Shown here: positions 9,376 to 27,878 of the stretch, piece by piece | How positions within the stretch are numbered: position 1 is the stretch's first letter | Layout of the letters: the number at the start of each line of letters is the position of its first letter | Assembly (NCBI RefSeq): GCF_014204985.1 | Contig: NZ_JACHMP010000001.1 | Coordinates: 3,844,001-3,908,000 of the forward strand | Source of the DNA: Streptosporangium becharense | Lineage (GTDB): Bacteria > Actinomycetota > Actinomycetes > Streptosporangiales > Streptosporangiaceae | DNA: 64,000 nucleotides | Direction of reading: 5' to 3' | The notes under the pieces: model-generated | Told to the model about the DNA's origin: nothing | The model's database searches: none | The model's input: the letters and a program-made list of their open reading frames with translations, nothing else | Position numbers and translations under genes: made by a program

Positions 9376-10553
9376 TGGCCAACAAGGAAGGTCGTCGCCG
9401 TTTCGGCAGTATCCGCAAGAGGGAGTCAGGACGGTTCCAGATCCGCTATCCCGGCCCGGACGGGAGCATGAGGACCGGTGCCACGACCTACGCGACCAAG
9501 ACCGAAGCGGACCGCGCTCTGACACTGATCGAGGCGCAGATCATCTCGGGAGAGTGGACGGACCCCGACCGCGGCAAGGTCCTGCTCGCCGACTACTCGG
9601 AGGCGTGGATCAGGGAGCGGCCGAACCTGCGGCCCAAGACGGTTGAGGGCTACACCTGGCTGCGGAAGCGCCACATCGTGCCGGGCCTGGGTGGGGTTCC
9701 GGTCGGCAAGCTCACTCCGCAGATGGTCCGTGCCTGGCGGGCTGACCTCCTGGCGGACGGCGTGTCGGTCTCCGTCGCGGCCAAGGTGTACCGGCTGCTT
9801 CGGGCGGTCCTCACGACGGCGGTGGAGGAGGACAAGATGCTCGCGCGGAACCCGTGCCGGATCAAGGGCGCCGACAACGAGCAGACGCCGGAGCGGCCGG
9901 TCCTCACCGTGGCACAGGTCTTCGAGCTGTCCGACCGGATGGCCGACCGGCGGTTCCGGGCGCTGGTCCTGCTGGCCACCTTCGCCAGCCTGCGCTGGGG
10001 TGAGGTCACCGCGCTGCGCCGCTCGGACGTCGACCTCGCCGCTCGGACGGTTCGGGTCCGGGAACAGCTCCTCGAACTGGAAGGGGGAGAGATGGTGCTC
10101 AGCCCTCCCAAGTCGCGGGCGGGCCGGCGGATCGTCGGCATCCCCTCGGTGATCGTCCCGGCGCTCGCCGATCACCTGGCGGAGTTCGTCGCCGACGCGC
10201 CGGACGCCTTCATGTTCCTCGGCAAACGCGGCGGGTTCCTGCGGGGCAACAACTTCCGGCGTGAGGCCAGGTGGGCGGACGCGCTCAAGGAGATGGGCGT
10301 CACCGGCCTGCACTTCCACGACCTGCGGCACACGGGCAACACCCTCGCCGCGCAGTCAGGGGCGAGCCTCGCCGACCTCAAGGCGCGGATGGGACACGAC
10401 AGCGACCGGGCGGCGCTGATCTACCAGCACGCCACCCGCGACGCGGACCAGCGGATCGCCGACGCGCTGAGCGCTCGCGTCAAGGCGGAGCAGCGCAAGG
10501 CGAAGAAGACACGGAAGCAGCAGGACGGCGGCGCTGGTGGGATCGTCGGCTAA
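9375..10553 (+). CDS. Tyrosine site-specific integrase
   Basis: 392 residues. It has an N-terminal arm-binding region, a core-binding SAM-like domain (about 60-150) and the catalytic domain. Visible catalytic residues: R207 (LRWGEVTALR), H315 and R318 (HFHDLRHT), H341 (MGHDSD) and the nucleophile Y350 (LIYQH). It integrates the element by recombining attP with the 3' end of a tRNA gene; the tRNA-Ala gene lies only 56 bp downstream, the normal position for attR of an AICE. It ends the tra-rep-xis-int operon and is followed by a terminator. The C-terminus is a lysine/arginine-rich tail. Confidence 0.93.
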   Translation: MANKEGRRRFGSIRKRESGRFQIRYPGPDGSMRTGATTYATKTEADRALTLIEAQIISGEWTDPDRGKVLLADYSEAWIRERPNLRPKTVEGYTWLRKRHIVPGLGGVPVGKLTPQMVRAWRADLLADGVSVSVAAKVYRLLRAVLTTAVEEDKMLARNPCRIKGADNEQTPERPVLTVAQVFELSDRMADRRFRALVLLATFASLRWGEVTALRRSDVDLAARTVRVREQLLELEGGEMVLSPPKSRAGRRIVGIPSVIVPALADHLAEFVADAPDAFMFLGKRGGFLRGNNFRREARWADALKEMGVTGLHFHDLRHTGNTLAAQSGASLADLKARMGHDSDRAALIYQHATRDADQRIADALSARVKAEQRKAKKTRKQQDGGAGGIVG

Positions 10554-10908: not shown

Positions 10909-11646
10909 TCAGTGGGTGGAGGCGCCTACGGGGGTCCCGGCCGGTACGCCGCCGAGGACGAGCTCGGGGAGGCCGGCGACGGAGTCGAGGATGTGGGTGG
11001 CGCCGCCCTTCAGGAGACGCTCTCTGCTGTGTGCTCCGGTGAGGAGACCGGCGATCACCGATGCGCCTGCCCGCCGCCCGCAGAGCATGTCGCTCTCGGA
11101 GCCGCCGGCGACCGCGACCTGGCGGACGTCCGCGATGCCGAGACGCAGGACCGCACTGAGGACCATGTCGGGCATGGGGCGCCCACGCCCGGCGTCTTCG
11201 GGGCAGAGGGCGAGATCGACCTTGTCGGACCAGCTCAGAGCGGACAGCACGCGGCCGAGTGTGGCCCGGCTGAACCCGGTGATGAGGCAGATCTTGACAC
11301 CCGCGCCGCGGAGCTTGTCGAGCGCCTCGACGGTACCGGGCAGCGGGACCAGACCCGAGCGCTCGACGGCCCCTTCGAAGGAACGCTCGAAGGTCAGGTT
11401 GGCCGCCTGCGCCTGAGCCTCGTTGTCCGGGAAGATGCCCCGGAATATATCGATCTTGGGGCAGCCCCGGGACCGGTGCACGTGCACCATGGCACGCGCG
11501 TACGCACCGGTCCCGGGCACGATGCCCTGCGTGGCGATCGCCTCGGCGAACGCCCGTTCGATCATGGCGATATCACCGATCGTGGTGCCTGCCAGATCCA
11601 GACAGGCAAGCCTGATGGGCGTTACTCCATCTTGGGCAAGGACCAT
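10909..11646 (-). CDS. HAD-superfamily hydrolase, phosphonatase-like
   Basis: 245 residues. HAD motif I is DLAGTT with nucleophile D17; the usual second aspartate is alanine, as in phosphonoacetaldehyde hydrolases (DWAGTT). Motif II is LITGFSR, and a helical cap lies between. Motif III appears as GRPMPDM with arginine in place of lysine, and motif IV is VAVAGGSESDM rather than GDTxxD. It therefore belongs to the phosphonatase-like HAD group, but the altered motifs leave the substrate open. It lies 29 bp downstream of the DLW-39 gene on the same strand and may be cotranscribed. ATG 11644-11646 is the start. Confidence 0.78.
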   Translation of the reverse strand: MVLAQDGVTPIRLACLDLAGTTIGDIAMIERAFAEAIATQGIVPGTGAYARAMVHVHRSRGCPKIDIFRGIFPDNEAQAQAANLTFERSFEGAVERSGLVPLPGTVEALDKLRGAGVKICLITGFSRATLGRVLSALSWSDKVDLALCPEDAGRGRPMPDMVLSAVLRLGIADVRQVAVAGGSESDMLCGRRAGASVIAGLLTGAHSRERLLKGGATHILDSVAGLPELVLGGVPAGTPVGASTH

Positions 11647-13664: not shown

Positions 13665-14495
13665 GTGAGCGCCGACCACGGCCGACAGTGGCCGATCGAC
13701 GATGATCTCACCGCACTGCGAGAACGTCTCCAGCGCTACGCGGCTCAGGCCGGCATGCGGGGCGAGCGCCTGGACGACCTGCTCCTGGCCGCCAACGAGG
13801 CGGTCATCAACGTCCTGGAGCACGGTGGCGGCAAGGGAACCCTGAGCATCCGGCGGACCGCCACCTCCCTGATCGTCGATATCACCGACACCGTCGGCCG
13901 TCTGGCCGCCGAGCGGATCCCGCGGGAGAGGCCGACGGGCACCGTCCGGGGGTTCGGACTGTGGCTGATGAGCCAGTTGTGCGACGAGTTCACCATCCAG
14001 CAGGCGGAGAAGGGGTCACGCGTTCGGTTGCGCATGCTCCTGTCCTCGCCGGCACCCCGGGAAGTCACCCCGCACGCGGACGGCTCCACACCGGAGGCCC
14101 CGAGCCGGGACGGTGACCGCGCCGGTGCCCCGCACATGACGACCGGCCCTTGGGAGAACACTCCGCACGCGGACGGCTCTGCACCGGAGGCCCCGAGCCG
14201 GGACGGTGACCGCGCCGGCGGCTCTCAGGACGGCACGGCCTTGGGGGCGGCCTCCGGAACGACGCTCGGGGCGTCGGCCGGGACGGGTTCCGAAGGGGCG
14301 TCCTCAGTGCCGTCGAGGACCGTTTCCGGGGCACGCAGGTTACGGACCCCCGGAGAGAGCAGCGCGGCCAGGGAGGAGAGGACGACGAGCGCGGCGCACC
14401 CCAGGAGCGCGGGCTCCGGTCCGACCGCGATCGCCAGCGGCCCGGCCACCATCAGACCGACCGGGCCGAGCATCAACGACCCCAGGGCGTCGTAG
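13665..14495 (+). CDS. HATPase-type anti-sigma regulatory protein with long tail
   Basis: 276 residues. Residues about 10-126 are a GHKL/HATPase_c_2 domain: N-box NEAVINVLEHG (N44) and G-box GTVRGFGLWLM are visible, as in SpoIIAB/RsbW-type serine kinases that bind sigma factors. The remainder is low-complexity and contains two copies of HADGSxPEAPSRDGDRAG about 31 residues apart (from 14071 and 14164). The last 271 bp overlap the convergent MFS gene; the tail shows no homology, so the reading frame may simply have run into it. Start GTG 13665, preceded by AAGGAGGG. Partner: the STAS protein upstream. Confidence 0.8.
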   Translation: MSADHGRQWPIDDDLTALRERLQRYAAQAGMRGERLDDLLLAANEAVINVLEHGGGKGTLSIRRTATSLIVDITDTVGRLAAERIPRERPTGTVRGFGLWLMSQLCDEFTIQQAEKGSRVRLRMLLSSPAPREVTPHADGSTPEAPSRDGDRAGAPHMTTGPWENTPHADGSAPEAPSRDGDRAGGSQDGTALGAASGTTLGASAGTGSEGASSVPSRTVSGARRLRTPGESSAAREERTTSAAHPRSAGSGPTAIASGPATIRPTGPSINDPRAS

Positions 14496-15547
14496 GAACT
14501 GACCCGCGACAGGGACTCCGGCGGGATCTCCCGCTGCATGGTGGTGCTCCACAACACACCGAAGACGTCGAAGCAGACGCCCATCACGACCGCCCCGAGG
14601 ACGATCGCCCACAGCGGGGCCCCTGAACCGAGCAGCACGTACGGAAGGGCCGTGGGCACGGTGAGGATCGTGGCGAACAGGATGGGGCGGCGGGGACGCA
14701 GTCGCAGCGCGACGAAGACACCGCCGATCATGCCGACCGCCTCCCCCGCCAGGACCGCCGCCCAGGCGCCCGCCCCGCCCAGGCTCTCGGTGGCGACCAG
14801 CGGTCCGAGCACGCCGTGCGCGGCCTGCACCGCCATCACCAGCACGGAGAACTGCGCGACGACCACCCAGAGCCACTGCCTGGAGACGAACTCCCGCCAG
14901 CCGCCCCGCAGGTCGGCCAGGACCGAGTGGCTTTCACTGGCGGAGCGTTCCGCCGGGGTGAGGCGGATCCCGGCGACGAGCACGGCCGCCGTCGCGAACA
15001 TGGCGCCGCTGACGGCGAGCGACCAGCCCCCGCCGAGCGCGACCACCGCGCCTCCGCTCAGCACGAGCCCCGCGACACGCGCGCTGTTGCCGCCCAGCCC
15101 GAGCAGCGCGTTGGCGGTCTGCAACCGCTCGGCCGGGACGACGTCGGGGATGATGCCGGTCAGCGCGGGATACAGGACCGCCATGCCCACGCCGGTCAGC
15201 GCCGCCGCCACCGCCAACGCGGGCAGCGGGGTCCACCCGGTGAGCATCATCGCGGCCAGGGAGGAGAACGCCGCCGCGTTGAGCACCTCACCGGCCATCA
15301 TGACCCGGTGCCGAGGCAACCTGTCGGCGATCACACCGCCCACGAGCATGAACACCACCATCGGCAGCGCCTCGGCGGTGAGCACGATCGACAGCGTCGT
15401 GGGCGTCGCCCCAGGGAGGCCGAGGATGCCGAAAGCCAGCGCGACCGGGGCGAAGGAACTGCCCAGCATCGAGATGGTCCGCGCGGCGAGCAGCAGGGTG
15501 AAACGGCGATCCCGGAACATGTCGAGATCGCGGCGATAGTCGTGCAC
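14225..15547 (-). CDS. MFS transporter, EntS-like exporter family
   Basis: 440 residues from GTG 15547, chosen because GAGGAG lies 8 nt upstream. Twelve hydrophobic helices are apparent, with the MFS loop GGVIADRLPRHRVM between helices 2 and 3. The pattern FTLLLAARTISMLGSSFAPVALAFGIL at the start resembles the MFS_3/EntS group, which contains siderophore exporters. It lies 160 bp beyond the GNAT gene that ends the Zur-like operon and could be its last member, as a metallophore or drug exporter. The last ~50 residues are a low-complexity Pro/Ala/Glu tail that overlaps the convergent anti-sigma gene. Confidence 0.8.
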   Translation of the reverse strand: MHDYRRDLDMFRDRRFTLLLAARTISMLGSSFAPVALAFGILGLPGATPTTLSIVLTAEALPMVVFMLVGGVIADRLPRHRVMMAGEVLNAAAFSSLAAMMLTGWTPLPALAVAAALTGVGMAVLYPALTGIIPDVVPAERLQTANALLGLGGNSARVAGLVLSGGAVVALGGGWSLAVSGAMFATAAVLVAGIRLTPAERSASESHSVLADLRGGWREFVSRQWLWVVVAQFSVLVMAVQAAHGVLGPLVATESLGGAGAWAAVLAGEAVGMIGGVFVALRLRPRRPILFATILTVPTALPYVLLGSGAPLWAIVLGAVVMGVCFDVFGVLWSTTMQREIPPESLSRVSSYDALGSLMLGPVGLMVAGPLAIAVGPEPALLGCAALVVLSSLAALLSPGVRNLRAPETVLDGTEDAPSEPVPADAPSVVPEAAPKAVPS

Positions 15548-15623
15548 CTGCCGGCTCCTCACTGGATTCTCCCGAAAGACCCATGGTGCCGTCGCACCGT
15601 CATGGCGTCGAATGAATATCCGG

Positions 15624-15711
15624 CCGGACACCCGACACGCGCACATGAACAACCAGCCGGACACCCGACACGCGCACATGAACGACCAGCCGGGTGCCCG
15701 ACGGGGGTTAC
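15624..15711. repeat. 33-bp tandem repeat upstream of MFS gene
   Basis: CCGGACACCCGACACGCGCA and the following 13 bases repeat at 15624 and 15657, with a partial third copy from 15690. The third copy runs into the 3' end of the GNAT gene. The period is 33 bp, so the minus strand reads an 11-residue repeat (MCACRVSGWLF) in frame with the MFS gene, but the better start lies downstream at 15547. Confidence 0.8.
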
Positions 15712-16283
15712 GAGCGCGCCTGGAGTGCTCCGGACGTGTCGGCGGTGTCCCGGAACCCGTCCAGCGGGATCTCGAAGTGGATGGTCTGGAAGTGCTCGTG
15801 GTCGCCGTCGCGGGCGTCGTGGACCTCCGTGGCCATCGACCTCCAGAACGCCTCCGCCCCCTCCACCCGGGTGTCGGTGTGCAGGTAGAGGGCCTCGTAC
15901 CCGGCGGTGTCGGCCACGAAGCGGCAGGCGAGCCGGACCATGGCCCCGGCCAGTCCCTGACGGCGGTGCTCGGGCCGTACGTAGACGCGGAAGAGCTGGG
16001 CGGTGGTCTCCGCCGGGTAGCGGTCGGCGAGGAAGCGGGGGTGCGGCGGGCACGAGGGACCTCCTGCCCGGACCGCGGTGGTTGCGACGACCTCGCCCCC
16101 CTTGGTCGCCACGAAGAGGGCGTGCCTGGCCGGACGCAGGTAGGTGCCGTCGAGGTCGATGACGTCCCGGTGCCACACCGGGTGGTAGCCGTGGCCGAAC
16201 TCCCGGTAGAAGGTGTCCAGCATGACGCTGCGCGCGCCTTCGAGGTGCTCGGCCTCGGCCGGGTGGACGTCGTAGGGGCTCAT
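15708..16283 (-). CDS. GNAT-family N-acetyltransferase
   Basis: 191 residues. GNAT motif A is visible as FRVYVRPEHRRQGLAGAMVRLA (acetyl-CoA loop RRQGLAG, about residues 108-114), with a C-terminal LYLHTDTRVEGAEAFWRSM motif B region. It transfers an acetyl group to an amine; the acceptor is not evident. Its ATG overlaps the stop of the ABC ATPase gene (ATGA), so it belongs to the Zur-like operon and might modify the exported or imported metallophore, or detoxify it. Confidence 0.82.
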   Translation of the reverse strand: MSPYDVHPAEAEHLEGARSVMLDTFYREFGHGYHPVWHRDVIDLDGTYLRPARHALFVATKGGEVVATTAVRAGGPSCPPHPRFLADRYPAETTAQLFRVYVRPEHRRQGLAGAMVRLACRFVADTAGYEALYLHTDTRVEGAEAFWRSMATEVHDARDGDHEHFQTIHFEIPLDGFRDTADTSGALQARS

Positions 16284-17893
16284 GCTCTGTTCTCCTGGTA
16301 GACGTGTGGATCAAGGAGGTTGCGGGTCAGCGGGTGACGGGGCCGGTCGAGGACGTGCGCGGCGGCACCCTCCTCCGCGACCCGGCCCTCTGAGAGGATC
16401 ACGACATGGTCCGCGAGCCGGGCGACGACACCCATGTCATGGCTGATCAGTACGAGGGTCAGACCGAACGCGCGGCGGAGCTCGTCGAGCAGGTCGAGGA
16501 CACCGGCCTGGGTGACCATGTCCAGGCCGGAGGTGATCTCGTCGCAGACGAGGACGTCGGGGGAGGCGAGCAGCGCGCGGGCGAGCGCCGCGCGCTGGAG
16601 CTCCCCACCGGACAGCTGCCCGGGCCGGCGGGCCGCCGATTCCGCGTCGAGCCCGACCCGCCGGAGCATCTCCAGTGCCGCGTCCCGCGCCTCCTGCGGG
16701 CTCAGGCCGCGCAACCGCACCGCGGTCCGGCTCACCTGGCCGACCACCGTCCGGTTGTGGTCGAAGGAGGCGTGCGCGTCCTGGAAGACGTACTGCACGC
16801 GGGCGATGTCCTCGCGACGCCGGCGCGACAGCGACCGGCCGAGTGGCCTCCCGTCCAGCAGGACTTCTCCCGCCGCAGGTTCGTGCAACCCCGCGATGCA
16901 GCGCGCCAGGGTGGTCTTGCCGCTGCCCGAGCGCCCGACCAGCGCCAGGCACCGCCCGGTGGCCACCCGCAGTGACACCTCGTGCAGCACGGTGGCCGAG
17001 CGGTGTCCTGCGGTCAGCCCCTCCACCGCCAGCCGGGCCGGACCGCGAGAAGGCCCAGGACCGGGGGGAGACCCGGGGCCGGGAGGAGATCCAGGACCGG
17101 GAGAGGGGTCCGGGGTGGGAGAAGGGCTCGGGATGGGAGAGGGGCCCGCGTCGGGAGGAGACGCCGGGCCGGGAGGCGGGCTCACCGGGAGCCGCGCGGC
17201 GAGCAGCCGCCGGGTGTAGTCGTGCCGGGGCCGGGTGAGCACCTCCCGGGCCGGGCCGCTCTCCACCGCCCGGCCGCCGGACAGAACGACGACGTGGTCG
17301 GCGAGCGCGGCCACCACGTCCAGGTCGTGGCTGAGCAGCACCACGGCGAGGCCCGCGCGGGCGAGACCCTTCAGCTCGTCGATGACCTCCCGCTTGGTGA
17401 TGGCGTCCTGACCGGTGGTGGGCTCGTCCGCCACGATCGCCGATGGTGCCACCAGGAGGGTCTGGGCGAGCACCAGGCGCTGCTGCTGTCCGCCGGAGAG
17501 CTGGTGCGGGTAGCGGCGGAGCAGGTCCTCGCCCGCGGGCAGCTCCGCCCGGCGGAGGGCGGACGAGATCCGTTCCGCCTCGTGCCGCCGCGCTGTCTCG
17601 CCCTCCCCGTGCCTCCTGGCGATCTCACGCAGGACCGCGCCGATGCGGCGGACCGGGTTGAGCACCGATGCGGGATGCTGGGGCAGGTAGCCCACGGTGC
17701 CGGTCACCTCGACCGTCCCGGACACGACCACTCCGGGGGCGTGCTCGCCGAGCAACGCCCTGCCGATCGTGGTCTTGCCGCTGCCCGAGGCGCCGACCAG
17801 GGCGAGCACCTGGCCGGGGCCGAGTTCGAAGGAGACGCCGTCGACCAGCGTGCTGCCGCCCGCCTCGGCGCGGAGCTCCGCGACGCGGATCAC
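16280..17893 (-). CDS. Fused double-ATPase of Opp/Dpp-type ABC importer
   Basis: 537 residues: two complete ABC ATPase domains, equivalent to DppD plus DppF. Domain 1 has Walker A GASGSGKTT (34-42), signature LSGGQQQR and Walker B ADEPTTG. Domain 2 has GRSGSGKTT, LSGGELQR and VCDEITSG. They are joined by a proline/glycine/serine-rich repeat linker (DPSPGPGSPPGPGSPPGPG). Start GTG 17893 is preceded by GAGGAGG and overlaps the permease stop by 4 bp; longer upstream readings lack homology. It energises the two permeases that follow upstream in the operon and the family-5 binding protein. Confidence 0.88.
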   Translation of the reverse strand: MIRVAELRAEAGGSTLVDGVSFELGPGQVLALVGASGSGKTTIGRALLGEHAPGVVVSGTVEVTGTVGYLPQHPASVLNPVRRIGAVLREIARRHGEGETARRHEAERISSALRRAELPAGEDLLRRYPHQLSGGQQQRLVLAQTLLVAPSAIVADEPTTGQDAITKREVIDELKGLARAGLAVVLLSHDLDVVAALADHVVVLSGGRAVESGPAREVLTRPRHDYTRRLLAARLPVSPPPGPASPPDAGPSPIPSPSPTPDPSPGPGSPPGPGSPPGPGPSRGPARLAVEGLTAGHRSATVLHEVSLRVATGRCLALVGRSGSGKTTLARCIAGLHEPAAGEVLLDGRPLGRSLSRRRREDIARVQYVFQDAHASFDHNRTVVGQVSRTAVRLRGLSPQEARDAALEMLRRVGLDAESAARRPGQLSGGELQRAALARALLASPDVLVCDEITSGLDMVTQAGVLDLLDELRRAFGLTLVLISHDMGVVARLADHVVILSEGRVAEEGAAAHVLDRPRHPLTRNLLDPHVYQENRA

Positions 17894-18831
17894 GTGACCT
17901 CCTCCTCGCGGCGCCGCTGCACCCCGTCGAACAACAGGTTCAGCCCGACCGACAACATGACGAGGAGCAGGGCCGGTACGACCACCGCCCAGGGCTGGAG
18001 GAACATGCCGGTGCGGTTCCGGTCGACCATCACCGCCCAGTCGGTGGCGTCCGGGGGCACGCCGACGCCGAGGAAACTCGCCGTCGCGACGAGATAGAGC
18101 GCGCCGACGACGCGGACGCCCAGGTCGGCCAGGAGCGTACGGAGCATCGACCGGCCCACATAACCGACGGCCCGCCGCCACCACGTCTCACCCTGGAGCA
18201 GCATCGCCTCCATGGCGGGCCTGGTGGCGACCTCCAGGGCCGCCGCGCGGGACACGCGGGCCACCTCCGGCATGCTGATCACGGCGACGATGACGATCAG
18301 GGTGAGCGGTCCGGGTGGCGCGGTCGCGGCCAGCAGGATGAGCAACAGCAGCGAGGGGATCGCCAGCAGCAGGTCCAGGGGCCGCATCAGCAACTCGTCG
18401 AGCCAGCGGCGCCGGGTCATCGCGGCCAGCATCCCCAGTGGCGTGCCGACGAGGTAGGCCAGGGCGGTGGCGGCCAGCGCGACCGTCACGACGGTCCTGC
18501 CCCCGGCGAGCACCTGCTCCCCCACGTCGCGTCCGACGAAGTCCGTTCCCAGGAGGGAGCCGGAGCCGAACGGGACGCCGCGGGGGCTCGGCTCCCCCGC
18601 CAGCAGCGGGCCGGCGAGGGCGAGCACCGTGGGCACGCCCAGCAGCACTCCGATCGACACCCACCGGAGCACCGGTCGCACACGACGCTCCGGCTTCCCG
18701 CCACCCCGCTCCGGGTTCACGTCCCGCTCCGGCTCCACGTCCTTCCACGCCGCCCTCATGTCCCGCCCGGGGACCGTGCCAGACTCCGGGCTCATGTCCT
18801 GCTCCGGGTTCATGCCGCGTTCCGGGTTCAT
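17890..18831 (-). CDS. Opp/Dpp-type ABC permease (DppC-like)
   Basis: 313 residues with six hydrophobic helices and the binding-protein-dependent transport signature region (SMPEVARVSRAAALEVATRPAME-like EAA loop). The N-terminal ~50 residues form a repeat-rich charged leader (MNPERGMNPEQDMSPES, then DVEPERDVNPERG), unusual for this family. At the DNA level this leader resembles the 23-bp minisatellite at 12.5 kb (GGTTCACGTCCCG). The true start may be further in. Its start and stop overlap its neighbours by 4 bp. Likely substrates are peptides or peptide-like metal chelates. Confidence 0.85.
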   Translation of the reverse strand: MNPERGMNPEQDMSPESGTVPGRDMRAAWKDVEPERDVNPERGGGKPERRVRPVLRWVSIGVLLGVPTVLALAGPLLAGEPSPRGVPFGSGSLLGTDFVGRDVGEQVLAGGRTVVTVALAATALAYLVGTPLGMLAAMTRRRWLDELLMRPLDLLLAIPSLLLLILLAATAPPGPLTLIVIVAVISMPEVARVSRAAALEVATRPAMEAMLLQGETWWRRAVGYVGRSMLRTLLADLGVRVVGALYLVATASFLGVGVPPDATDWAVMVDRNRTGMFLQPWAVVVPALLLVMLSVGLNLLFDGVQRRREEEVT

Positions 18832-19778
18832 GTCGCGCCTCCGGCGCGCGGAGCCAGCCGGAACGCGACGACGTCGGCGACGAGGTTCACGGTCACCGTG
18901 GTGGCCGCGAAGACCAGGGCCAACCCCTGGATCACCGGGATGTCCCGGGCGGAGACCGCGCTGACCAACGAGGTGCCGAGGCCGGGGATGACGAAAACGG
19001 CCTCGACGGCGATCACCCCGCCGAGGAGCCAGTCCGTGGTCCGGGCGAGCTGCTGCACGGCCGGCGCCACCGCGTTGGGCAGCGCGTGCGCCAGCCGTAC
19101 CCTCCGGACCGACAGGCCGAGCCGCAGGGCGTGGCGTACGTAGTCGGAACGCAGGGCGTCGATCATCCCGGCCCGGACCAGCCTGCTGATGGAGCAGATC
19201 GGCCGGGCGAGCAGGACGAGGAGCGGCAGCACCAGCACGGCCGGTTGGGCGAGCAGGTTCGGGCCGACGCCGACCGCGGTGGGAGGGAACCAGCCGAGCC
19301 GGAGCGCGAACAGCGCGACCAGCATGACGGCGAGGGCGAACTCCGGGACCGAGTACAGGCCGATGCCGACCGAGGTGAGCGCCCGGTCGAGCAGCCGGCC
19401 CTCGCGGACCGCGGCGACGACTCCGACGGCCACGGCCAGCGGCACCAACAGCAGCAGGGTGATCGCAGCGAGCTGGACGGTCGGCCCGCCGGCGTCGGCG
19501 AGGAAACCGGTGACGGGGCGCCCGGCCGTCAGGGACGACCCGAGGTCGCCCCGGAGAAGGCCGAGCAGCCAGTCGGCGTAGCGCACCGGCGCGGGCCGGT
19601 CGAGCCCCAGTTCCCGGCGGATCCGTTCGATCCGCTCCGGATCGGGCGTGTCACCGGCCAGCACCACGGCGGCGTCGCCGGGCAGTGCCTCGGTGAGGAC
19701 GAACACCAGCGCCGTGACCGCGAGGATCTGCGCCAAGCCGAGCAGCAGGCGCCGCGCGGCGTACCGGGGGAGGCTCAC
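18828..19778 (-). CDS. Opp/Dpp-type ABC permease (DppB-like)
   Basis: 316 residues from GTG 19778 (SLPRYAARRLLLGLAQ), chosen because this is where DppB homology starts; an in-frame ATG at 19877 would add a tail made only of repeat DNA. Family pattern is clear: amphipathic start, ELGLDRPAPVRYADWLLGLLRGDLGSS, then six helices and the EAA-type loop RAGMIDALRSDYVRHALRLGLS. With the DppC-like permease it forms the channel of the peptide/nickel-type importer. The 211-bp gap to the binding-protein gene holds a 74-bp tandem repeat. Confidence 0.86.
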   Translation of the reverse strand: MSLPRYAARRLLLGLAQILAVTALVFVLTEALPGDAAVVLAGDTPDPERIERIRRELGLDRPAPVRYADWLLGLLRGDLGSSLTAGRPVTGFLADAGGPTVQLAAITLLLLVPLAVAVGVVAAVREGRLLDRALTSVGIGLYSVPEFALAVMLVALFALRLGWFPPTAVGVGPNLLAQPAVLVLPLLVLLARPICSISRLVRAGMIDALRSDYVRHALRLGLSVRRVRLAHALPNAVAPAVQQLARTTDWLLGGVIAVEAVFVIPGLGTSLVSAVSARDIPVIQGLALVFAATTVTVNLVADVVAFRLAPRAGGAT

Positions 19779-19960
19779 CGGGCACCCGCCCGTCCGTATG
19801 CGCGGCACGGACCCGATGCCGCCGGGCGGCACGCGTACCCCGGGAGGCTCATCGGGCACCCGCCCTTCCATGTACACGGTGCGGACCCGACGCTCCCAGG
19901 CGGCACGTGCACCCAGGGAGGCTCATCGGGCACCCGGCCGTCCGGGGGCCGGGTGCGCGG
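19761..19960. repeat. 74-bp tandem repeat containing copies of a gene start
   Basis: Copies begin at 19761, 19835 and 19909, exactly 74 bp apart, with the third incomplete. The first copy includes the actual GTG start of the DppB-like gene; on the minus strand the others read ATGAGCCTCCC at the same place, so the gene start has been duplicated twice upstream. Each copy also carries the motif CGGGTGCCC before the start. Confidence 0.85.
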
Positions 19961-19989
19961 GGCGTGGGTCCTGGGGGTGCGGGAGGACG

Positions 19990-21531
19990 TCAGGCAAGCC
20001 AGACCTTGTCGAACCGGGCCCAGTCGAGGGTGTTGGCCGGGGCGTCGGCGATGCCGCCCACCCGCGGTGAGGTCGCGACGAGCCAGTCGGCGAAGCCCCA
20101 GACGAGGTAGCCGCCTTCGGCGTGCTGCATGCGCTGCATCTCGGCGTACACGTCGCGGCGTGCCTTCTCGTCGGCGAGGGAGACGGCCTTGGTGTAGAGC
20201 GCGTCGAACTCCGGGCGCTTCCACTTGGTGACGTTGACGGTGGACGTGGAGAGCAGGCGCTGTGCGAAGTGCGTCTCGATGGGCATCGCGCCGGAACGGA
20301 AGCAGCACAGGCTTCCCTTGTCGAGGATGTCCTTCCAGTAGGTGTCCTTGTTGCCCATGGCGACGTTGACGTCGAGCCCGGCCTGCCGCATCTGGTCGGC
20401 GAAGACGCTCGCGGACTCCACGAAGCCGCTCGCCGCGGCCGAGGTGTCGAGCTGGATCTTCATCCCCTTCGCCCCGGCCTTCTCCACCAGCCACTTCGCC
20501 TTCTCCAGGTCCCGGGTGCGCTGCGGAATCTCCTCGGCGTAGTACTGGTAGCCCCTGCCGAACAGGTCGTTGCCGACCTGCCCGGCTCCGGCCAGCACGG
20601 TGTCGACCAGTTGCCCGCGGTCGGCCAGCAGGAACATGGCCTCCCGCAGGCCGGGGTCGTTGAAGGGTGCGCGGTCCAGTTTCATGGCGAAGGCCTGCAT
20701 GCCGCTGTTGGTGAGCCGGGTGACGGCCAGCCGGTCGTTGCCCTGGTAGGTGCGGGCCGTGGTGGCGGTGATGTCGTGGGCATAGTCGACCTGGCCGCCG
20801 AGCAACGCGTTGACGCGGGCCGACTCCTCATTGCTGATCAGGTACTGCAGCTCGTCGACGTGAGGAGCGCCTTCCCAGTAGTCGGCGTTGCGCTTGAGCA
20901 GCAGGGAGCGGCCCGGTTCGAAGGACACGAAGCTGAACGGACCGGACCCGACCGGCCGGGTGAAGTCCTCGGTGCCCTCGGGGACGATGAACACGCCGAA
21001 GGCGGCCAGCACGTTGGGGAACTCGGCGAACGGCTGCTTGAGCGCGAACTCGACGGTGCGGTCGTCCACCGCCCGGCTGCGCTTGAGGTCGATCACCGCC
21101 AGGGTGGTCTTGGCGCGGAAGGCGCGGGCGGGATCGGCGATCCGGGCATAGCTGGACAGGACGTCGGCGGCCCGGACGGGCTTTCCGTTGTGGAAGCCGG
21201 CCTGGCGGAGGGTGACCCGCCACGTGGTGAGGCCGGCGTCGGCCTCCCACCGTTCGGCGAGCCGGGGCCGGACGGACAGGTCGGGGCCGTAGTCGGCGAG
21301 CTTGTCGAACATCGCCTTGGACCGGGACGCCTCGACGAACAGGTTGGACAGGTGCGGGTCCAGGGTCTCCTGGGCCCCGCCCCCGGCGAACGCGACGCGC
21401 AGCCGGCCTCCCTTGCGTGGTCCGCCCGTCGCGGCGGTCCCGGTCGCGGGGCCGCTGCCGCACCCGGTGAGCAGGGCGGCGGACAGCCCGGCGGTGGCGC
21501 CGAGGAAGGCGCGGCGGTTCAGGGAGTGCAT
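19990..21531 (-). CDS. Family-5 solute-binding lipoprotein (DppA/OppA/NikA type)
   Basis: 513 residues. The signal peptide has twin arginines (NRRAFLG) and a lipobox ending LLTGC24, so it is probably a Tat-exported lipoprotein. The body shows SBP family-5 landmarks: a GGRLRVAF start, PHLSNLF, W...T..LR.A.FHNGKPVRAADV, RPVGSGPFSFVSFEPGRSLLLKRN. Members bind peptides, Ni- or Zn-chelates; in staphylopine-type systems the same family binds the opine-metal complex. It starts 13 bp inside the methyltransferase gene. ATG 21529-21531 is the start. Confidence 0.9.
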   Translation of the reverse strand: MHSLNRRAFLGATAGLSAALLTGCGSGPATGTAATGGPRKGGRLRVAFAGGGAQETLDPHLSNLFVEASRSKAMFDKLADYGPDLSVRPRLAERWEADAGLTTWRVTLRQAGFHNGKPVRAADVLSSYARIADPARAFRAKTTLAVIDLKRSRAVDDRTVEFALKQPFAEFPNVLAAFGVFIVPEGTEDFTRPVGSGPFSFVSFEPGRSLLLKRNADYWEGAPHVDELQYLISNEESARVNALLGGQVDYAHDITATTARTYQGNDRLAVTRLTNSGMQAFAMKLDRAPFNDPGLREAMFLLADRGQLVDTVLAGAGQVGNDLFGRGYQYYAEEIPQRTRDLEKAKWLVEKAGAKGMKIQLDTSAAASGFVESASVFADQMRQAGLDVNVAMGNKDTYWKDILDKGSLCCFRSGAMPIETHFAQRLLSTSTVNVTKWKRPEFDALYTKAVSLADEKARRDVYAEMQRMQHAEGGYLVWGFADWLVATSPRVGGIADAPANTLDWARFDKVWLA

Positions 21532-22451
21532 GGGGGAAGGGTCCTTTCCGGGGTGGAGTGCCGTAGCCGTGCCACGACGTGGAGCCGGTCGCCGGACAGG
21601 CCGGTCGACAGCGGGGCGTCAGGGGCCCACGGGGGCCGGGTGCGCGGGCCTGGCCCGTCGAACAGGGCGAGCACCTCGAACCCGGCGGTGTCGAGGAAGT
21701 ACTCCAGTTCCCGGGGGAAGAGCAGCCGCCAGGCCGAGCGCTGGTGCAGCGGCTCGGCGCGTCCCGGCCACTCCCAGGTCCGGTGGCGGCGCAGCAGCTG
21801 CGCGGCGTGGTCGATCCACAGCCGGGTGTGGGAGGTGTAGGGCACGCCGTCCCAGACCACGGACCGGGTGCTCGTCCCGTCGAGCAGTTCGGTGTTGCCG
21901 AGGAAGAAGGCGCCGTTGCGCATCTCGGCGACGAGCAGCCCGCCGGGCTCCAGGTGTTCGCGGCAGCGGGCCAGGAACGCGGTCAGGTCGGCGTTCTCGT
22001 GGCAGTAGAGCAGGGCACTGTCCAGGCAGGTGATCACGTCGAACCGGCGGCCGAGGTCGAACGAGCGCATGTCGGCGGCGACGAACTCGACGTCCGGGTG
22101 GTGGCGGCGCGCGTGGGCCAGCATCGGTTCCGAGACGTCCAGGCCGGTGACGGTGTAACCGGCGCGGGCGAGGTGTCCGGCGTCGCGGCCGGTGCCGCAG
22201 CCGACGTCGAGGAGCCGCGTCCGCCGGCCCCTCTCGCCGTCGCCTCGGTTCCCTTCCCTGTCGCCCCGCTTCCCTTCGCCGTCGCCCCGGCCCTTTTCGT
22301 CGCCCCGGCCCTTTTCCCCGTCGCCCCGGTTGCCCGCCCGGGGTCCGCCGCCGAAGCGGCGTACGAGGTCGTCGGCGAAGCGGCCGGCCCGGTGGTCGGG
22401 GTCGGGGAACTGGAGCTCGTACAGCTCCGGGTTGTCGGTGAGGAGGTTCAC
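21519..22451 (-). CDS. Class I SAM-dependent methyltransferase
   Basis: 310 residues. Motif I is LLDVGCGTGRDAGHLA (80-95), followed by VTGLDVSEPMLAHARRH, VEFVAADMRSF and LEPGGLLVAEM, a standard class I fold for small molecules. An insertion of about 40 charged residues (36-77; repeated GDGEKGRGDEKGRGDGEG) separates the N-terminal helix from motif I. Coupled to both neighbours (ATGA with the MFS gene, 13-bp overlap with the binding protein). In context it could N- or O-methylate the product of the pathway. Confidence 0.85.
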   Translation of the reverse strand: MNLLTDNPELYELQFPDPDHRAGRFADDLVRRFGGGPRAGNRGDGEKGRGDEKGRGDGEGKRGDREGNRGDGERGRRTRLLDVGCGTGRDAGHLARAGYTVTGLDVSEPMLAHARRHHPDVEFVAADMRSFDLGRRFDVITCLDSALLYCHENADLTAFLARCREHLEPGGLLVAEMRNGAFFLGNTELLDGTSTRSVVWDGVPYTSHTRLWIDHAAQLLRRHRTWEWPGRAEPLHQRSAWRLLFPRELEYFLDTAGFEVLALFDGPGPRTRPPWAPDAPLSTGLSGDRLHVVARLRHSTPERTLPPCTP

Positions 22452-23614
22452 GGCAGTGCCGTCCTTTCCGGGATGCGGACGCGGAGCGCGGCGACCGCGG
22501 ACGCCAGTCCGAGTGCCGCGCAGAGGATCCAGGCGAGCCGGTCGGCCGTGTCACCCGCCCAGCCGATGACGACGTTGCCCGCCGCGGCGACCACGCCCGA
22601 GGCGAGGTAGAACATCCCGAAGTAGGTGCCGGTGACGTTCTCCTTGCCGAAGGCGGGGATCAGCTCCAGGACGAACGGCTGCGCGATCATCACGCCCAGG
22701 GCGAGGCCGAAGGCCGCCACCAGCACCGGGACCAGACCGGGCAGCAGCGGCGTCAGGAAGGCGGCGCCCATCACCGCCATGCCGAGCGCGATGGCGCCGC
22801 GCCGGCTGAGGCGGTCCTTCAGCCACCGGGTGATCCGCACCTGGAGCAGCAGCGTGGCGATGGTGGACACCAAAAACAGCGCCGCCACCGAGGAGGCCGA
22901 TCCGGTGGCCTGTTCCGCCCGCATCGGCAGGATCAGGTAGAGCTGGTTCTGCAGCGCGAACATCCCGCTCAGCGCCAGCGTGAAGGCGACGAACCCGCGG
23001 TTGGCCAGGCACTCCCGCCAGTCGGCGAGCACCGACCCCTCGCCGGGCGGGACGGGCCGCGCCGGCAGCGTCAGCGCCTGCGCCACCGTCAGCCCCGCGA
23101 AGATCAGTGCGGCGACCGTCGCCGCCACCCGGAAGTCGGCCAGCAGCAGCGCGCTGCCCAGCAGCGGGCCGAGCAACGCCCCGGTGTTGGCGAACACGTT
23201 GAACAGGGAGAACGCCTCCGCGCGGCGGTCACCGGCCTCGGCCGCCACGTAGGCGCGTACCGCCGGGTTGAACAACGCCCCGGCCAGCCCCGACAGGACC
23301 GAGGCCGCGATCAGCACGGGCAGCGAGCCGTCCAGCGCGAAGAGGCCGAAGCCGACGGCGCGCAGCGCGCACCCGGCGATGATGACCGTCCGTGCGCCGA
23401 GCCGGTCGGAGGCGGTTCCCCCGATCAGGAACAGGCCCTGCTGGCTGAGGTTGCGGACGCCGAGCACCACCCCGACGACCGCGGCCGACAGCCCCAGGGT
23501 GCCTCCGAGGTAGCCGGCGAGGTAGGGGATGAGCATGTAGAAGCCGGTGTTGACGCCCATCTGGTTCACCAGCAGAAGCCGTATGGACAGCGGGAAGGAC
23601 CGGAACGTCTTCAT
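22448..23614 (-). CDS. MFS exporter of the Zur-like operon
   Basis: 388 residues from ATG 23614, where the reading becomes [36 protein letters not shown]. Twelve helices, with an MFS loop GGTASDRLGARTVI. It resembles drug-efflux/YdeE-type members. Its place between biosynthetic genes and the importer parallels CntE, the staphylopine exporter, so a metallophore export role is inferred. The longer in-frame upstream reading runs antisense-like through the enolase gene and was discarded. The stop overlaps the methyltransferase start (ATGA). Confidence 0.85.
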   Translation of the reverse strand: MKTFRSFPLSIRLLLVNQMGVNTGFYMLIPYLAGYLGGTLGLSAAVVGVVLGVRNLSQQGLFLIGGTASDRLGARTVIIAGCALRAVGFGLFALDGSLPVLIAASVLSGLAGALFNPAVRAYVAAEAGDRRAEAFSLFNVFANTGALLGPLLGSALLLADFRVAATVAALIFAGLTVAQALTLPARPVPPGEGSVLADWRECLANRGFVAFTLALSGMFALQNQLYLILPMRAEQATGSASSVAALFLVSTIATLLLQVRITRWLKDRLSRRGAIALGMAVMGAAFLTPLLPGLVPVLVAAFGLALGVMIAQPFVLELIPAFGKENVTGTYFGMFYLASGVVAAAGNVVIGWAGDTADRLAWILCAALGLASAVAALRVRIPERTALP

Positions 23615-24717
23615 CCCGCCTCGTCCGCCCGCCGGACGCCGGGCCCGGGAGGACCGGGGTGCCACGGTGCCCCCTCCTCGCCACCGGTCTCGTTCTCCTC
23701 GCCGCCGGTCTCCTCCGCCCGCCGGACGCCGAGCCCGGGGCGGCCGGAGAGCCGCAGCACGCCGTCCTCGCCGCCGATGCCGGTCCAGGGGTCGCGGGCC
23801 AGCAGCAGGTGCCCGTCGAGGTCGGTCCACCGGGCGTGGCCGGCCAGGTGGGCGGCGGGGGCGACGCCGAGCGAGCTGGCCACCAGGCAGCCCAGCATGA
23901 CGTTCATGCCGTGCCCGCGCGCGGCGTCGATGACCCGGAGCGCGGCCCGCACCCCGCCACACTTGGCCACCTTGACGTTGACGCCGGCCACGGCACCGGC
24001 CAGCCGTTCCACGTCGGCCGCGTCGACGGCGTCCTCGTCGGCGATCACCGGCGTCGGGGAGCGCTCGCTCACCCAGGCCAGCAGGTCGGGGCGGCCCGGC
24101 GGGACGGGCTGTTCGACGGCGTCCGCGTAGGGCATCCGTTCCAGGATCCGGACGGCCTGCTCGGCGGTCCACGCGCCGTTCGGGTCGAGCAGTAGCCGCG
24201 CGCCGGGGACGGCGGCCCGGACCGCGGCGACCCGGGCGACGTCGTCGTCCTCATCGGGCGAGCCCAGCTTGACCTTCAGCACGGTGAACCCGCGCTCGCC
24301 CAGGTCACGGGCGGTCTCCCCCGCCCGCGAGGGGTCACAGATCCCGATCGTGTACGCCGTGGGCACGGGGCGCCACTCGGGGTGTCCGGCGAGCCGGTGG
24401 ACCGGCAGCCCGTCGCGTTTCCCCATCAGGTCGAACGCGGCGGCGTCGAGACCGGCGAGCACCCCGGGCGGGTACGGCAGGTCCGGCAGCTCCGCCAGGA
24501 GCGTCTCCGGGTCGGGGCACGCCGGCAGCCCGGTCAGGGCCGCGACGATACCGGGGACGTCCAGCCCGTAGTAGGCGCTGGTCACGATCTCGCCGTACCC
24601 GCTCACCCCGTCGTGGTGGAGGACGAGCTGGACGGCATCGCGGGTGGACATCACCGAGCGGGAGATCCGGAAGGGTTCGCGCAGGGGGAGCGGGACGACC
24701 GACCAGGTGAGCTTCAC
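23611..24717 (-). CDS. Enolase-superfamily dipeptide-epimerase-like enzyme
   Basis: 368 residues from GTG 24717. Mandelate-racemase/muconate-lactonising layout: capping domain, then KxK (K148, K150), metal ligands D178 (LLLDPNG), E202 (VEQPV) and D227 (VIADED), and K252 (VKVAKCGG). This lysine pair on both faces of the barrel is the arrangement of L-Ala-D/L-Glu and related dipeptide epimerases. Next to an ATP-grasp ligase, it probably epimerises a dipeptide or amino-acid unit of the pathway product. The last ~40 residues are a repeat tail ([10 protein letters not shown] and [11 protein letters not shown]). It overlaps both neighbours by 4 bp. Confidence 0.85.
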
Positions 24718-25769
24718 GCCGGGACCCCCACCGCGCGCAGCGGGTCGACGACCCGGCGGCAGCGGGCCCAGCCGGTCACCTCGACGGCGCCCGGATCGGT
24801 GATCTCCAGGGGACGGGTCGCCGGATGCCCGGTCAGCCCGCGGCTGCGGCGGTAGTCGTCGTTGAAGATCGAGTCCAGGTAGCGGTGCGGGCCGTCGGGG
24901 AACACGGTCGCCACCCGGGCCCCGGCCTCCACCCGCGCGGCCCAGGCGGCGACGAGCGCGACCGCCCCGGTGCTCCAGCCCCCGGTGACGAAGGCGTGCC
25001 GGGCGAGGCGGCGGCAGGCGTCTGCGGCCTCCGCGGGCCCGACCCAGTGCACCTCGTCGAACTCGTCGTAGGCGACGTTGCGCGGGTGGATGCTGCTGCC
25101 GAGCCCCCGCATGAGGCGCGGACGCGCCGGCTGGCCGAAGATCGTCGAGCCGACGGTGTCGACGCCGACGAGCCGTATCCCCGGCCAGTGGCGGCGGAGC
25201 TCCGTGATGACGCCCGCGCTGTGCCCGCCCGTCCCGACGCTGCACACCAGCACGTCGGCTCTGCCGAGCTGTTCGACCAGCTCAAGCGCCAGGGAGGCGT
25301 AGCCGGCACGGTTGTCGGGGTTGCGGTACTGGTCCGGCCAGTACGCGCCGGGGAGCCGGTCCATGAGCTGCCGGAGCCGGTCGAGCCGGGCCTGCTGCCA
25401 GCCGCCCACCGGGTGCGGTCGCTCGACCGTCTCCAGGCGGACGCCGTACGCGGTCAGCAGGGCCCGCATGCTCGGTTCCAGCTCGGCGTCGACGACGAGG
25501 ACCACGGGGTGTCCGAGCGCCTGACCGGCGAAGGCCAGGCCGATGCCGAGGGTGCCGCTGGTGGACTCCACCACGGGCGCCCCGGGCCGGAGCTCGTTCC
25601 TGGCGCGGGCGCCGAGGAGCATGGAAACCGCGGCCCTCGCCTTCATGCCGCCCGCGCCGAGACCTTCGAGCTTCGCCCAGAAGCCGGGGTGCGGGTGGGG
25701 CAGCGGGGCCGTGATCCGGGTGACGGGGGTGTTGCCCACCAGGGCGAGCAGGTCGGGTGCGGAGGTCAT
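24714..25769 (-). CDS. Cysteine-synthase-like PLP enzyme
   Basis: 351 residues, fold type II PLP enzyme. Start [13 protein letters not shown] lysine K43 in [10 protein letters not shown], phosphate loop [12 protein letters not shown], second glycine loop GTGGHSAGV and the C-terminal [17 protein letters not shown]. Classical cysteine synthases read NPGGSxKDR at the lysine, so this is a divergent member like SbnA or other beta-replacement enzymes. SbnA-type enzymes join an amino acid to an aminoacrylate from phosphoserine; a similar beta-replacement here would supply a diamino-acid-like metal ligand. That is inference. Coupled to both neighbours. Confidence 0.85.
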
Positions 25770-26581
25770 CGGGTGTTCTCCCCGCGGTAGCGGTAGATGA
25801 CGGTCGGGCCGCCGTCGAGCCAGAAGAAGGGGTACGGTTCCGCCGAGACGGCGGTGACCCCGGCGCCGACGAACCGGCGGAGCACGGCGCTGCCGGTCTG
25901 GGCGAAGAACACCAAAGGTTTGCCGGTCTCCCGCGCGTGCCGCAGCAGGGGGTCGAACGTCCCGTTGCCGAGCGTCATGCCCGAGGCCAGCACGGCGTCG
26001 CAGTCGTCCAGCGCGGCCACGGCGTCGGTCACGTGGGGCTCGCCCCACTCGGTCTCGCCGCCCTTGAGGTCGCACGGCACGTAGCGGGCCCCGCGCTCCC
26101 GCAGGCGGTGCAGGAGCGAGTTGACCACGCCGATCACCAGCACCCGCCGGCCGGGCCCGGCCGGGAGGAGGTCGACCACCGCCGTGGCCCTGGCCAGCGA
26201 CTTGTCCAGGGACGATCCCGCGGGCACGGTCACGGCGGCGGCGGGGTCGTGGGGGTGCTCGTGCATCAGGTACGCGTCCAGGGCGGCCACCCGCACCGCG
26301 GGCAGCGGGTGCGCCAGCAGCGTCGCCACGTCGCGGCCCACGCATTCGTACACCGCGTCGTCGGGGATCTCGTCCGGCTCGACGGCGCAGGATCCCACCG
26401 CGGCGCCGAGTCTGAGGCTGATCACGTGGTTGCGGTAGCCGCGCCCGCGTGTGGCGTGGTGCGCTCCCTGCCTGGTGACGAATCCGACGCTGATCCGGTG
26501 CCGGGCGGGGTCGTCGCCCATCCGGCCGGCCAGGACGTCCGTCACCAGGTCGTCGAGGGTGCCCGCGGTCGCCGGCTTCAT
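25766..26581 (-). CDS. Rossmann-like DUF364/DUF4213-type protein
   Basis: 271 residues. The N-terminal half has [22 protein letters not shown] and the C-terminal half a Rossmann-like region ([60 protein letters not shown]). This matches the family called putative heavy-metal chelation domain (DUF364), whose biochemical activity is unknown. Histidine- and acid-rich stretches (HEHPHD) could bind metal. It is coupled to the ATP-grasp gene (ATGA) and to the PLP gene, so it acts in the same pathway, either on a metal or in making the ligand. Confidence 0.78.
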
Positions 26582-27828
26582 GCGTACTCCACGGTGAGGG
26601 CGGCCACCAGCTCCTCGGCCCGGGACCGGGCTCCCGGCCCCGAGGTGTCCGCGACCATCACGTGGCCGAGGTAGTCGTTGTTGCTCGTCCCCTCGCCGGC
26701 GCGGAAGCCCGGGTCCTTCACCCGCCACTCGACGACGTCGCCGGCCTCGGCGAGCCGCCCGGTGCCGTGGACCGCCGAGAGCGTCCCCGGCCGCGGAGGG
26801 ATGAGGAAGGCGATGGCCGCGCTGCGCACCCCGGTCTCGGCCGGGGTGAGCCGGGGACGCTCCCCCAGGGCGAGCTGGGCGTAGGCCATCGGGATGTCGA
26901 CGCCGGTGACCCGGCGGACCAGCTCGGTGATCTGGTTCCCGGCCGGGCGGGGGTTGATCTCCACCACCTTCGGACCGTCCGGGGTCAGTTTGAGCTCGGT
27001 GTGCGCCACCCCGTGGTCCAGGCCGACCGCGGCCAGTGCGGCGAGCGCCGTCTCACCGGCCGCCCGCGTCACGTCGGGGTCGAGCGCGGCGGGGAACATG
27101 TGGCCGCTCTCCACGAACCACGGCTCGCCGGTGACGCTCTTGTCGGTCACGCCGATGACGGTGGTCTCGCCTTCGAAGGCGACCGTCTCCACGCTGATCT
27201 CGGGGCCGGTCAGGAGCTCCTCCAGCAGGACGAGGGGGGTCCGCGTCTGCCGGCGCGCGTTGACGGGGAAGCCCTCCAGGGCCAGGTAGGCGTCGCGAAG
27301 TTGTTCCCGGTCGCCGACCTTGCGCACGTACATCCCGGCGCACAGGTCGACCGGCTTGATCACCAGGGGGTAGCCGATCTCCTCGGCGCGTGCCGAGGTC
27401 TCCGCCCACCCGCTCGTGACGGCGAACGCCGGCCCGGCCAGCCCTGCGCCACGCAGCGCCTCGCGGGTCAGGTCTTTGCGGTAGGCCCGCTCCACCGCCT
27501 CGGGCTTGGCGCCGGGCAGCCCCAGATGGGCGCCGATCCGGGCGACCGTGCCGAGGTAGTAGTCGCAGGAGGAGATCACCCCGTCGAAGCCGAACACCTC
27601 GTGCAGCCGCTCGACGCGGTCGAGCAGGGCCGGGACGTCGTTGGTCTCCTCGGTGACCACGTTGTCGGCGGCGAGCAGGGGATGCGGGACGGCACCGGCC
27701 GGGGCACGCAGGTAGTGGTGCAGGTCGCGGGTCAGGAAGGTGAACCGGTGGCCCGCCTCCAGGATCGCCCGCGGGAGAAGGGTGCTCATCGCCCCCACCC
27801 AGCTCTCGACCATCAACAGGTGCCCCAA
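26578..27828 (-). CDS. ATP-grasp ligase, first gene of Zur-like operon
   Basis: 416 residues. ATP-grasp landmarks: [19 protein letters not shown] (nucleotide lysine), [18 protein letters not shown] and the Mg-binding [25 protein letters not shown]. Family members of this type form amide bonds between amino acids (L-amino-acid ligases) or similar carboxylate-amine pairs. TTG at 27828 is chosen: GAGGAGG lies four bases before it and it restores [13 protein letters not shown]; the ATG five codons later is the alternative. It leads the operon and its promoter region contains the Zur-like box 36 bp upstream. Confidence 0.85.
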
Positions 27829-27863
27829 GACGCCTCCTCGGCCCGAACGTCGGATGCAAGAAA

Positions 27864-27878
27864 TGATAATGGTTTTCA
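27864..27878 (-). promoter_or_regulatory. zur box: Zur-like box
   Basis: TGATAATGGTTTTCA is a 7-1-7 palindrome matching the actinobacterial Zur operator pattern TGAAAATxATTTTCA at most positions. On the minus strand it overlaps a TATCAT -10 hexamer for the ATP-grasp gene. Iron boxes of the same genome (TTAGGTTAGxCT type, three seen at 41.6 and 63.7 kb) look quite different, which argues against an iron regulator here. Zinc-dependent repression of the whole operon is inferred. Confidence 0.75.

Follow-up and report, generated by a model that had tools for sequence, protein, structure and literature searches.

We describe a minus-strand operon of Streptosporangium becharense that we read as a candidate zincophore pathway, together with the Zur-type box behind which it lies. 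The window, that is, the whole 64-kb stretch of DNA analysed, has a G+C content of 72% and belongs to a two-contig genome of 7.8 Mb. Eleven tightly packed genes run on the minus strand from 27828 to 15708, and a twelfth follows past a gap of 160 bp (Table 1). Families were assigned with Pfam and NCBIfam; a PHROGs search gave no result, and Pfam found no peptide-synthetase domain among the twelve genes. Most junctions are 4-bp overlaps, the exception being the 13 bp shared by the methyltransferase and solute-binding protein genes, and gaps open before the DppB gene (211 bp) and before the last major facilitator superfamily (MFS) gene (160 bp). An earlier note on this DNA had seen the same arrangement behind the palindrome, and we confirm it. 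Its count of up to thirteen genes comes down to twelve, since DppD and DppF are fused into a single gene that has two Walker A motifs.

The ligase most likely starts at TTG 27828, which is located downstream of the box and has AGGAGG immediately upstream; translation from this codon agrees with the start of the Streptomyces scabiei ligase (MAHLLVVESWVG). GTG 27942 was rejected as the start because the box would then fall within the gene and TTG 27828 fits S. scabiei. The ligase searches were run from ATG 27813 rather than from the proposed TTG.

Conservation and edges of the operon

Scanning a genome collection with a DUF364 alignment confirmed at least 468 relatives among 598 candidate stretches, of which the best 80 were kept as loci. 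They come from Streptomyces (60), Micromonospora (5), Actinokineospora (3), Lentzea (3), Nonomuraea (2), Streptoalloteichus (2), Saccharopolyspora (2), Frankia (1), Actinoplanes (1) and Umezawaea (1). A core of ten genes is conserved: ligase, DUF364, the pyridoxal-phosphate (PLP) enzyme, epimerase, the first MFS exporter (MFS1), methyltransferase, solute-binding protein, DppB, DppC and the fused ATPase. All ten share a strand in 70 of the 80 loci, four of the other ten loci being truncated by contig ends (L045, L054, L101, L107), and the ligase, DUF364 and PLP genes are present throughout. The same operon is found in the closest relative, G005, with core enzymes 79-90% identical and a box with two mismatches before the ligase. 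It is also plasmid-borne in S. angustmyceticus and Rhodococcus (L156, L157), where the annotation reads ATP-grasp protein, DUF364 or hypothetical protein, cysteine synthase family and dipeptide epimerase; hence the operon may move between hosts. When 394 genomes were drawn evenly from the class, with at most six candidates scored per genome, DUF364 relatives were found at 67% identity or more in 10 genomes, at 42-53% in 20 and marginally in 3. The earlier note had proposed to look elsewhere for the ATP-grasp/DUF364/PLP/enolase neighbourhood. The genes for making, exporting and importing are found together in ten genera plus Rhodococcus, so that the operon is widespread among soil bacteria.

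The 80 loci all stop short of the position of the last MFS gene (0/80 reach it), and longer stretches from 16 loci were used there. These span 2.2-14.8 kb past the ATPase gene, and at least six of them are places among the 80 or their genomes. No homologue of the last MFS gene follows the ATPase gene in any of the 16, two weak matches being MFS1 itself, and the operon terminates at the ATPase or the GNAT gene. Given the 160-bp gap and the 0/16 count, the last MFS gene was dropped as an operon member and probably lies outside the unit.

The GNAT gene is an optional partner of the operon, often sharing its box. It occurs in 35 of the 80 loci, on the operon strand in 13 and on the opposite strand in 22; loci stop about 10 kb past DUF364 and at least 700 bp follow the ATPase gene in 53 of 74, so that downstream copies are undercounted. 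In 13 of the 22 opposite-strand cases the box separates the GNAT gene from the ligase, at a distance of 166-338 bp between the two genes. In the other nine the GNAT gene is farther away, and in three of these (L069, L070, L090) it has its own box, 86-140 bp away and with 1-2 mismatches. In S. buecherae (L122) the GNAT gene is remote from the operon and has a two-mismatch box directly upstream, and in S. scabiei (L109, L125) a box follows a GNAT gene and precedes another Opp-type binding protein gene. Standing across a shared box or behind its own box ties the GNAT gene to the same control. Two further observations concern this gene. In the closest relative just a 31-residue GNAT match is left after the ATPase gene (L023, 15325-15417). 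At L125 the order is GNAT, Zur-type box (at 9551), Opp-type binding protein, permease and an MFS1-like gene, which is perhaps a further metallophore uptake locus.

Table 1. Features of the S. becharense locus, with their occurrence in related loci
Feature	Position	Strand	Evidence and occurrence
Zur-type box	27864..27878	-	Reads TGAAAACCATTATCA (minus strand); the proposed TTG start is 35 bp away
ATP-grasp ligase, L-amino-acid-ligase type	26578..27828	-	PF13535 and LAL_C2 PF18603; 80/80 loci
DUF364 protein	25766..26581	-	PF04016; 80/80 loci (gene used to fetch the loci)
SbnA-like fold-type II PLP enzyme	24714..25769	-	PALP; TIGR03945, 246 bits (below cut-off); 80/80 loci
Dipeptide-epimerase-like enolase	23611..24717	-	MR/MLE enolase; 79/80 loci
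MFS exporter (MFS1)	22448..23614	-	PF07690; 77/80 loci
S-adenosylmethionine-dependent methyltransferase	21519..22451	-	PF13649; 74/80 loci
Opp/Nik-type solute-binding protein	19990..21531	-	PF00496 (SBP_bac_5); 74/80 loci
DppB-like permease	18828..19778	-	PF00528 (BPD_transp_1); 72/80 loci
DppC-like permease	17890..18831	-	PF00528 (BPD_transp_1); 73/80 loci
Fused DppD-DppF ATPase	16280..17893	-	Two ABC_tran stretches, two Walker A motifs; 74/80 loci
GNAT acetyltransferase, optional partner	15708..16283	-	PF00583; 35/80 loci
Second MFS gene, probably outside the unit	14225..15547	-	160-bp gap; 0/16 loci long enough

The Zur-type box

The palindrome TGATAATGGTTTTCA at 27864-27878 occurs exactly once in the genome, and nothing else in the window matches the published Zur core TGaNAANNNTTNtCA. 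The promoter between L33-L28-S14 ribosomal-protein paralogues and a COG0523 GTPase gene also has a related site; zinc-free ribosomal-protein paralogues and COG0523 are a classic pair of Zur targets. The same type of site, a 15-bp 7-1-7 palindrome close to a promoter, is thus seen in this genome at the operon, at znuA and at the L33-L28-S14/COG0523 promoter. Published motifs are tGaNNatSatNNtCa for Zur of Streptomyces coelicolor and taaTGaNAANNNTTNtCANta, derived from znuA of 17 actinobacterial genomes (PMC5472717). Within the window, 27864-27878 is again the one place where the strict core of the latter is found. Four sites in the genome come within two mismatches of TGAAAATNATTTTCA: the operon box, the znuA promoter, a site within a small reading frame (L003) and a site (L004/L127) preceding a second Opp-type importer. 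At up to three mismatches 25 sites are found, among them the ribosomal-protein promoter, versus 5 for the reversed pattern, so a loose match by itself carries little weight. Of the three Fur-family genes in this genome, the likely Zur is the one located 2.7 kb downstream of the znuA box, which has a His-rich motif. Similar boxes adjoin znuA in other genomes (L112, L117, L118). The second Opp/Nik-type importer of the genome lies behind TGATAATCATTATCA (the L127 box at 11292, which is C1:7768291).

In relatives, the stretch from 400 bp upstream of the ligase match to 40 bp inside it was searched for its closest fit to TGAAAATNATTTTCA. A box with at most four mismatches was found in 76 of the 80 operon promoters (76 of the 78 assessable), compared with 8 of 1483 random control windows drawn from these loci at matching size. 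Of the four loci lacking it, L032 has an assembly gap, L042 meets a contig end, and L029 and L033 have five mismatches. Of 79 promoters (34 kb), 54 contain the published core in its [TC]G..C[AG] form, versus 5 occurrences in the remaining 1.53 Mb and none in 1600 base shuffles. The 78 boxes comprise 30 distinct 15-mers, and eight genera other than Streptomyces have a box with at most four mismatches. The S. angustmyceticus plasmid promoter carries one with two mismatches and the Rhodococcus plasmid promoter only a five-mismatch candidate. That nearly all assessable relatives carry this type of box ahead of the operon makes it more than a chance match. The earlier note had made its reading depend beforehand on such a box being conserved at homologous loci, which we found it to be.

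Enzymes, importer and a second operon type

The closest structures to the ligase in the PDB are 3vot, an L-amino acid ligase, and BacD. PDB matches of the enolase include dipeptide epimerases, with which its motif residues align. The motifs, namely KxK, the D/E/D metal ligands, a second-side Lys and the dipeptide-epimerase DxD, are all present and are retained in 77-78 of the 78 homologues read. These epimerase motifs and the resemblance of the ligase to L-amino-acid ligases strengthen the idea of a dipeptide. The PLP enzyme has SbnA as best family (TIGR03945, 246 bits, under the cut-off of 350) and as best PDB match (5d84/5d87), and CmnB of capreomycin biosynthesis is also among its closest solved relatives. 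What the earlier note called a divergent cysteine-synthase-like PLP enzyme is thus upheld as a PLP enzyme and refined towards SbnA. In common with SbnA it keeps the lysine expected to bind PLP, the ESTSG loop, a YWxxQY region and a GS.IFG motif, and its reaction is probably a beta-replacement in which a phospho- or acetyl-serine is the donor. The substrates of SbnA are O-phosphoserine and glutamate, and SbnB completes diaminopropionate. The SbnB family (TIGR03944) has no match in the genome, with a control that matched, below cut-off, in 8 of 14 genomes.

The importer resembles nickel and staphylopine-type systems. NikA-type is the best NCBIfam model for the binding protein, which CntA also matches, all below cut-off. 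For the fused ATPase the NikD model scores over cut-off, and CntF and CntD are among the best models, below it. The model of the DUF364 protein, with a predicted local distance difference test (pLDDT) score of 91, has its best folds in two other DUF364 structures, 3l5o (Dhaf4260) and 3npg (PH1506), at template-modelling (TM) scores of about 0.5-0.6 but only 14-17% identity; the remaining matches were partial (TM < 0.4) and gave no function. Both structures are described as proteins of unknown function, the genome context of the family having earlier suggested metal chelation (PMC2954201). One paper ties a DUF364 protein to prodigiosin output rather than to zinc (PMC4046660). No literature linking DUF364 to Zur or to an SbnA-like enzyme was found in titles and abstracts.

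More distant DUF364 relatives, of which 23 loci were read (L024-L028, L135-L152, L158, L159), form a second type of operon. It combines DUF364 with a related PLP enzyme (23 loci), a GHMP kinase (19), a related MFS protein (19), a methyltransferase (17) and a FecCD permease (17), as counted within the stretches read. One PLP enzyme of this type was scanned, and again SbnA was the best family (134 bits). The Tsukamurella and S. melanogenes plasmid loci also match it. At least one box with at most three mismatches is present in 19 of the 23 loci, where chance would give about 0.1 per 15-kb locus (from a rate of 5 in 1483 windows of 440 bp). The DUF364 and SbnA-like families appear to be central to a wider Zur-linked group with at least two architectures, one with ATP-grasp ligase, epimerase and Opp importer, the other with GHMP kinase and FecBCD importer. 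L140 is a hybrid in which synthesis genes of the second type stand beside an Opp importer 49-53% identical to that of the window. An iron box was considered as well but not adopted: in six loci scanned with an IdeR-type consensus, only L028 had a close site (3 mismatches). It lies at 8644, 1.8 kb before a FecCD gene that is preceded at 325 bp by a Zur-type box as well, and iron control of a neighbour is possible there.

A zincophore reading and its alternatives

From the box and the gene content, which are read in the sequence itself, we infer a product, its chemistry and metal, a DUF364 reaction and binding of Zur. It is likely that the locus is a Zur-repressed operon for making, exporting and re-importing a zincophore of modified dipeptide or diaminopropionate type. 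This is the best reading since it joins Zur control, small-molecule synthesis, export and import. At low zinc, Zur would leave the box and the operon would be transcribed. The SbnA-like enzyme might join a serine-derived aminoacrylate to the nitrogen of an amino acid, giving a diaminopropionate-type aminocarboxylate. As SbnB was not found in the genome, an SbnB-type oxidation of this intermediate to free diaminopropionate probably does not follow. The ATP-grasp ligase could form an amide with a second amino acid and the epimerase could invert the alpha carbon of a dipeptide, in whichever order; DUF364 would perform a core step and the methyltransferase would finish the product. MFS1 is the predicted exporter of the chelator, and the binding protein with the fused-ATPase Opp-type importer would take back the metal complex. 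Speculatively, the GNAT enzyme may acetylate the returned chelator and so release the metal.

Several observations weigh against the zincophore reading. The boxes of Frankia, Rhodococcus and one Micromonospora are weak (5 mismatches), the published core, even in relaxed form, is missing from 25 of 79 promoters, and 60 of the 80 loci are Streptomyces and thus not independent, kinship inflating their count. Among second-type loci, 4 of 23 (L026, L140, L141 and L149, the last a short contig) are boxless at three mismatches, a count made without matched control. The PLP enzyme scores beneath the SbnA cut-off and has Thr for the Asn of ESTSGN in 79 of 79 homologues read. The binding protein and ATPase resemble nickel systems no less than zinc systems.

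This last resemblance, with NikA and NikD as best models, would suit a metallophore for nickel, cobalt or several metals that is Zur-controlled since zinc is one cargo, and Opp-type metallophore importers are indeed often broad. However, the CntF, CntD and CntA models match too, and the box is of the type found in this genome at znuA and at the genes for zinc-free ribosomal proteins, so we consider this unlikely. A secreted inhibitor or antibiotic made under zinc starvation, such as a zinc-chelating peptidase inhibitor, with the importer serving salvage or sensing, appears slightly less likely again. BacD, a relative of the ligase, makes a dipeptide antibiotic, MFS self-protection is common and the GNAT could be a self-resistance enzyme, but each gene of the four-gene importer is retained in 72-74 of the 80 loci and the second operon type keeps DUF364 and the PLP enzyme, mostly with a FecBCD-type importer. 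It is very improbable that the operon imports and breaks down dipeptides or chelators of other organisms: the Opp importer, dipeptide epimerase and PLP enzyme could serve catabolism, but the ATP-using ligase (80/80), exporter (77/80) and methyltransferase (74/80) point to synthesis.

The candidate zincophore operon can be set beside several known systems. Staphylopine and pseudopaline (Cnt) are zinc-responsive and combine small aminocarboxylate chemistry with an MFS exporter and an Opp/Nik-type importer. Our operon shares the exporter and importer types, with Cnt transporter models matching below cut-off, but has an ATP-grasp ligase, an SbnA-like PLP enzyme, a dipeptide epimerase and DUF364. 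The nicotianamine-synthase-like CntL (PF03059) has no match in the genome, as the earlier note had claimed for the operon (its control matched in 1 of 14 genomes). The opine dehydrogenase CntM (PF10100) gave no match, but neither did its control in any of 14 genomes. Lacking a nicotianamine-synthase-like gene, the operon is set apart from staphylopine-type systems despite its similar working. The functional analogue with different chemistry proposed in the earlier note is therefore partly supported: box, gene set and this missing gene agree, thirteen genes and a last MFS exporter do not. SbnA, which with SbnB forms the diaminopropionate module of staphyloferrin B, and CmnB are among the closest solved relatives of the PLP enzyme, but the SbnA match is below cut-off and SbnB was not found.

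EDDS (ethylenediamine-disuccinate) shares a serine-derived diamine core with the product proposed here but, to our knowledge, has neither a peptide bond nor a D-residue. Coelibactin is a peptide-synthetase product, and the twelve genes here hold no peptide-synthetase domain. Compared by description rather than by genes, [S,S]-EDDS (aes) of Amycolatopsis japonicum is, as our candidate would be, an actinobacterial zincophore under Zur control (PMC6103462). The coelibactin cluster of S. coelicolor is also a Zur-controlled actinomycete metallophore cluster (PMC6103462, PMC12161575). A rule for aminopolycarboxylic acid metallophores is included in antiSMASH 7 (PMC10320115). A search of titles and abstracts, with most subscription journals outside its coverage, found no description of this gene set, which matches no described zinc scavenger found in the searches.

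Zur-controlled zincophores named in one review are coelibactin, EDDS and pseudopaline (PMC6103462), that is, few chemical types. If our reading is true, the operon would add a new type, assembled by ligase, epimerase and diaminopropionate-type enzymes together with a protein family of unknown function, and DUF364 would gain a concrete pathway. We lean slightly towards the broader view that DUF364 and the SbnA-like PLP enzyme are the core of a previously unrecognised zincophore class with at least two Zur-linked architectures in Actinomycetota, DUF364 catalysing a new kind of bond formation as the chelator is assembled. As a marker pair near a Zur box, the two genes would help to find such pathways.

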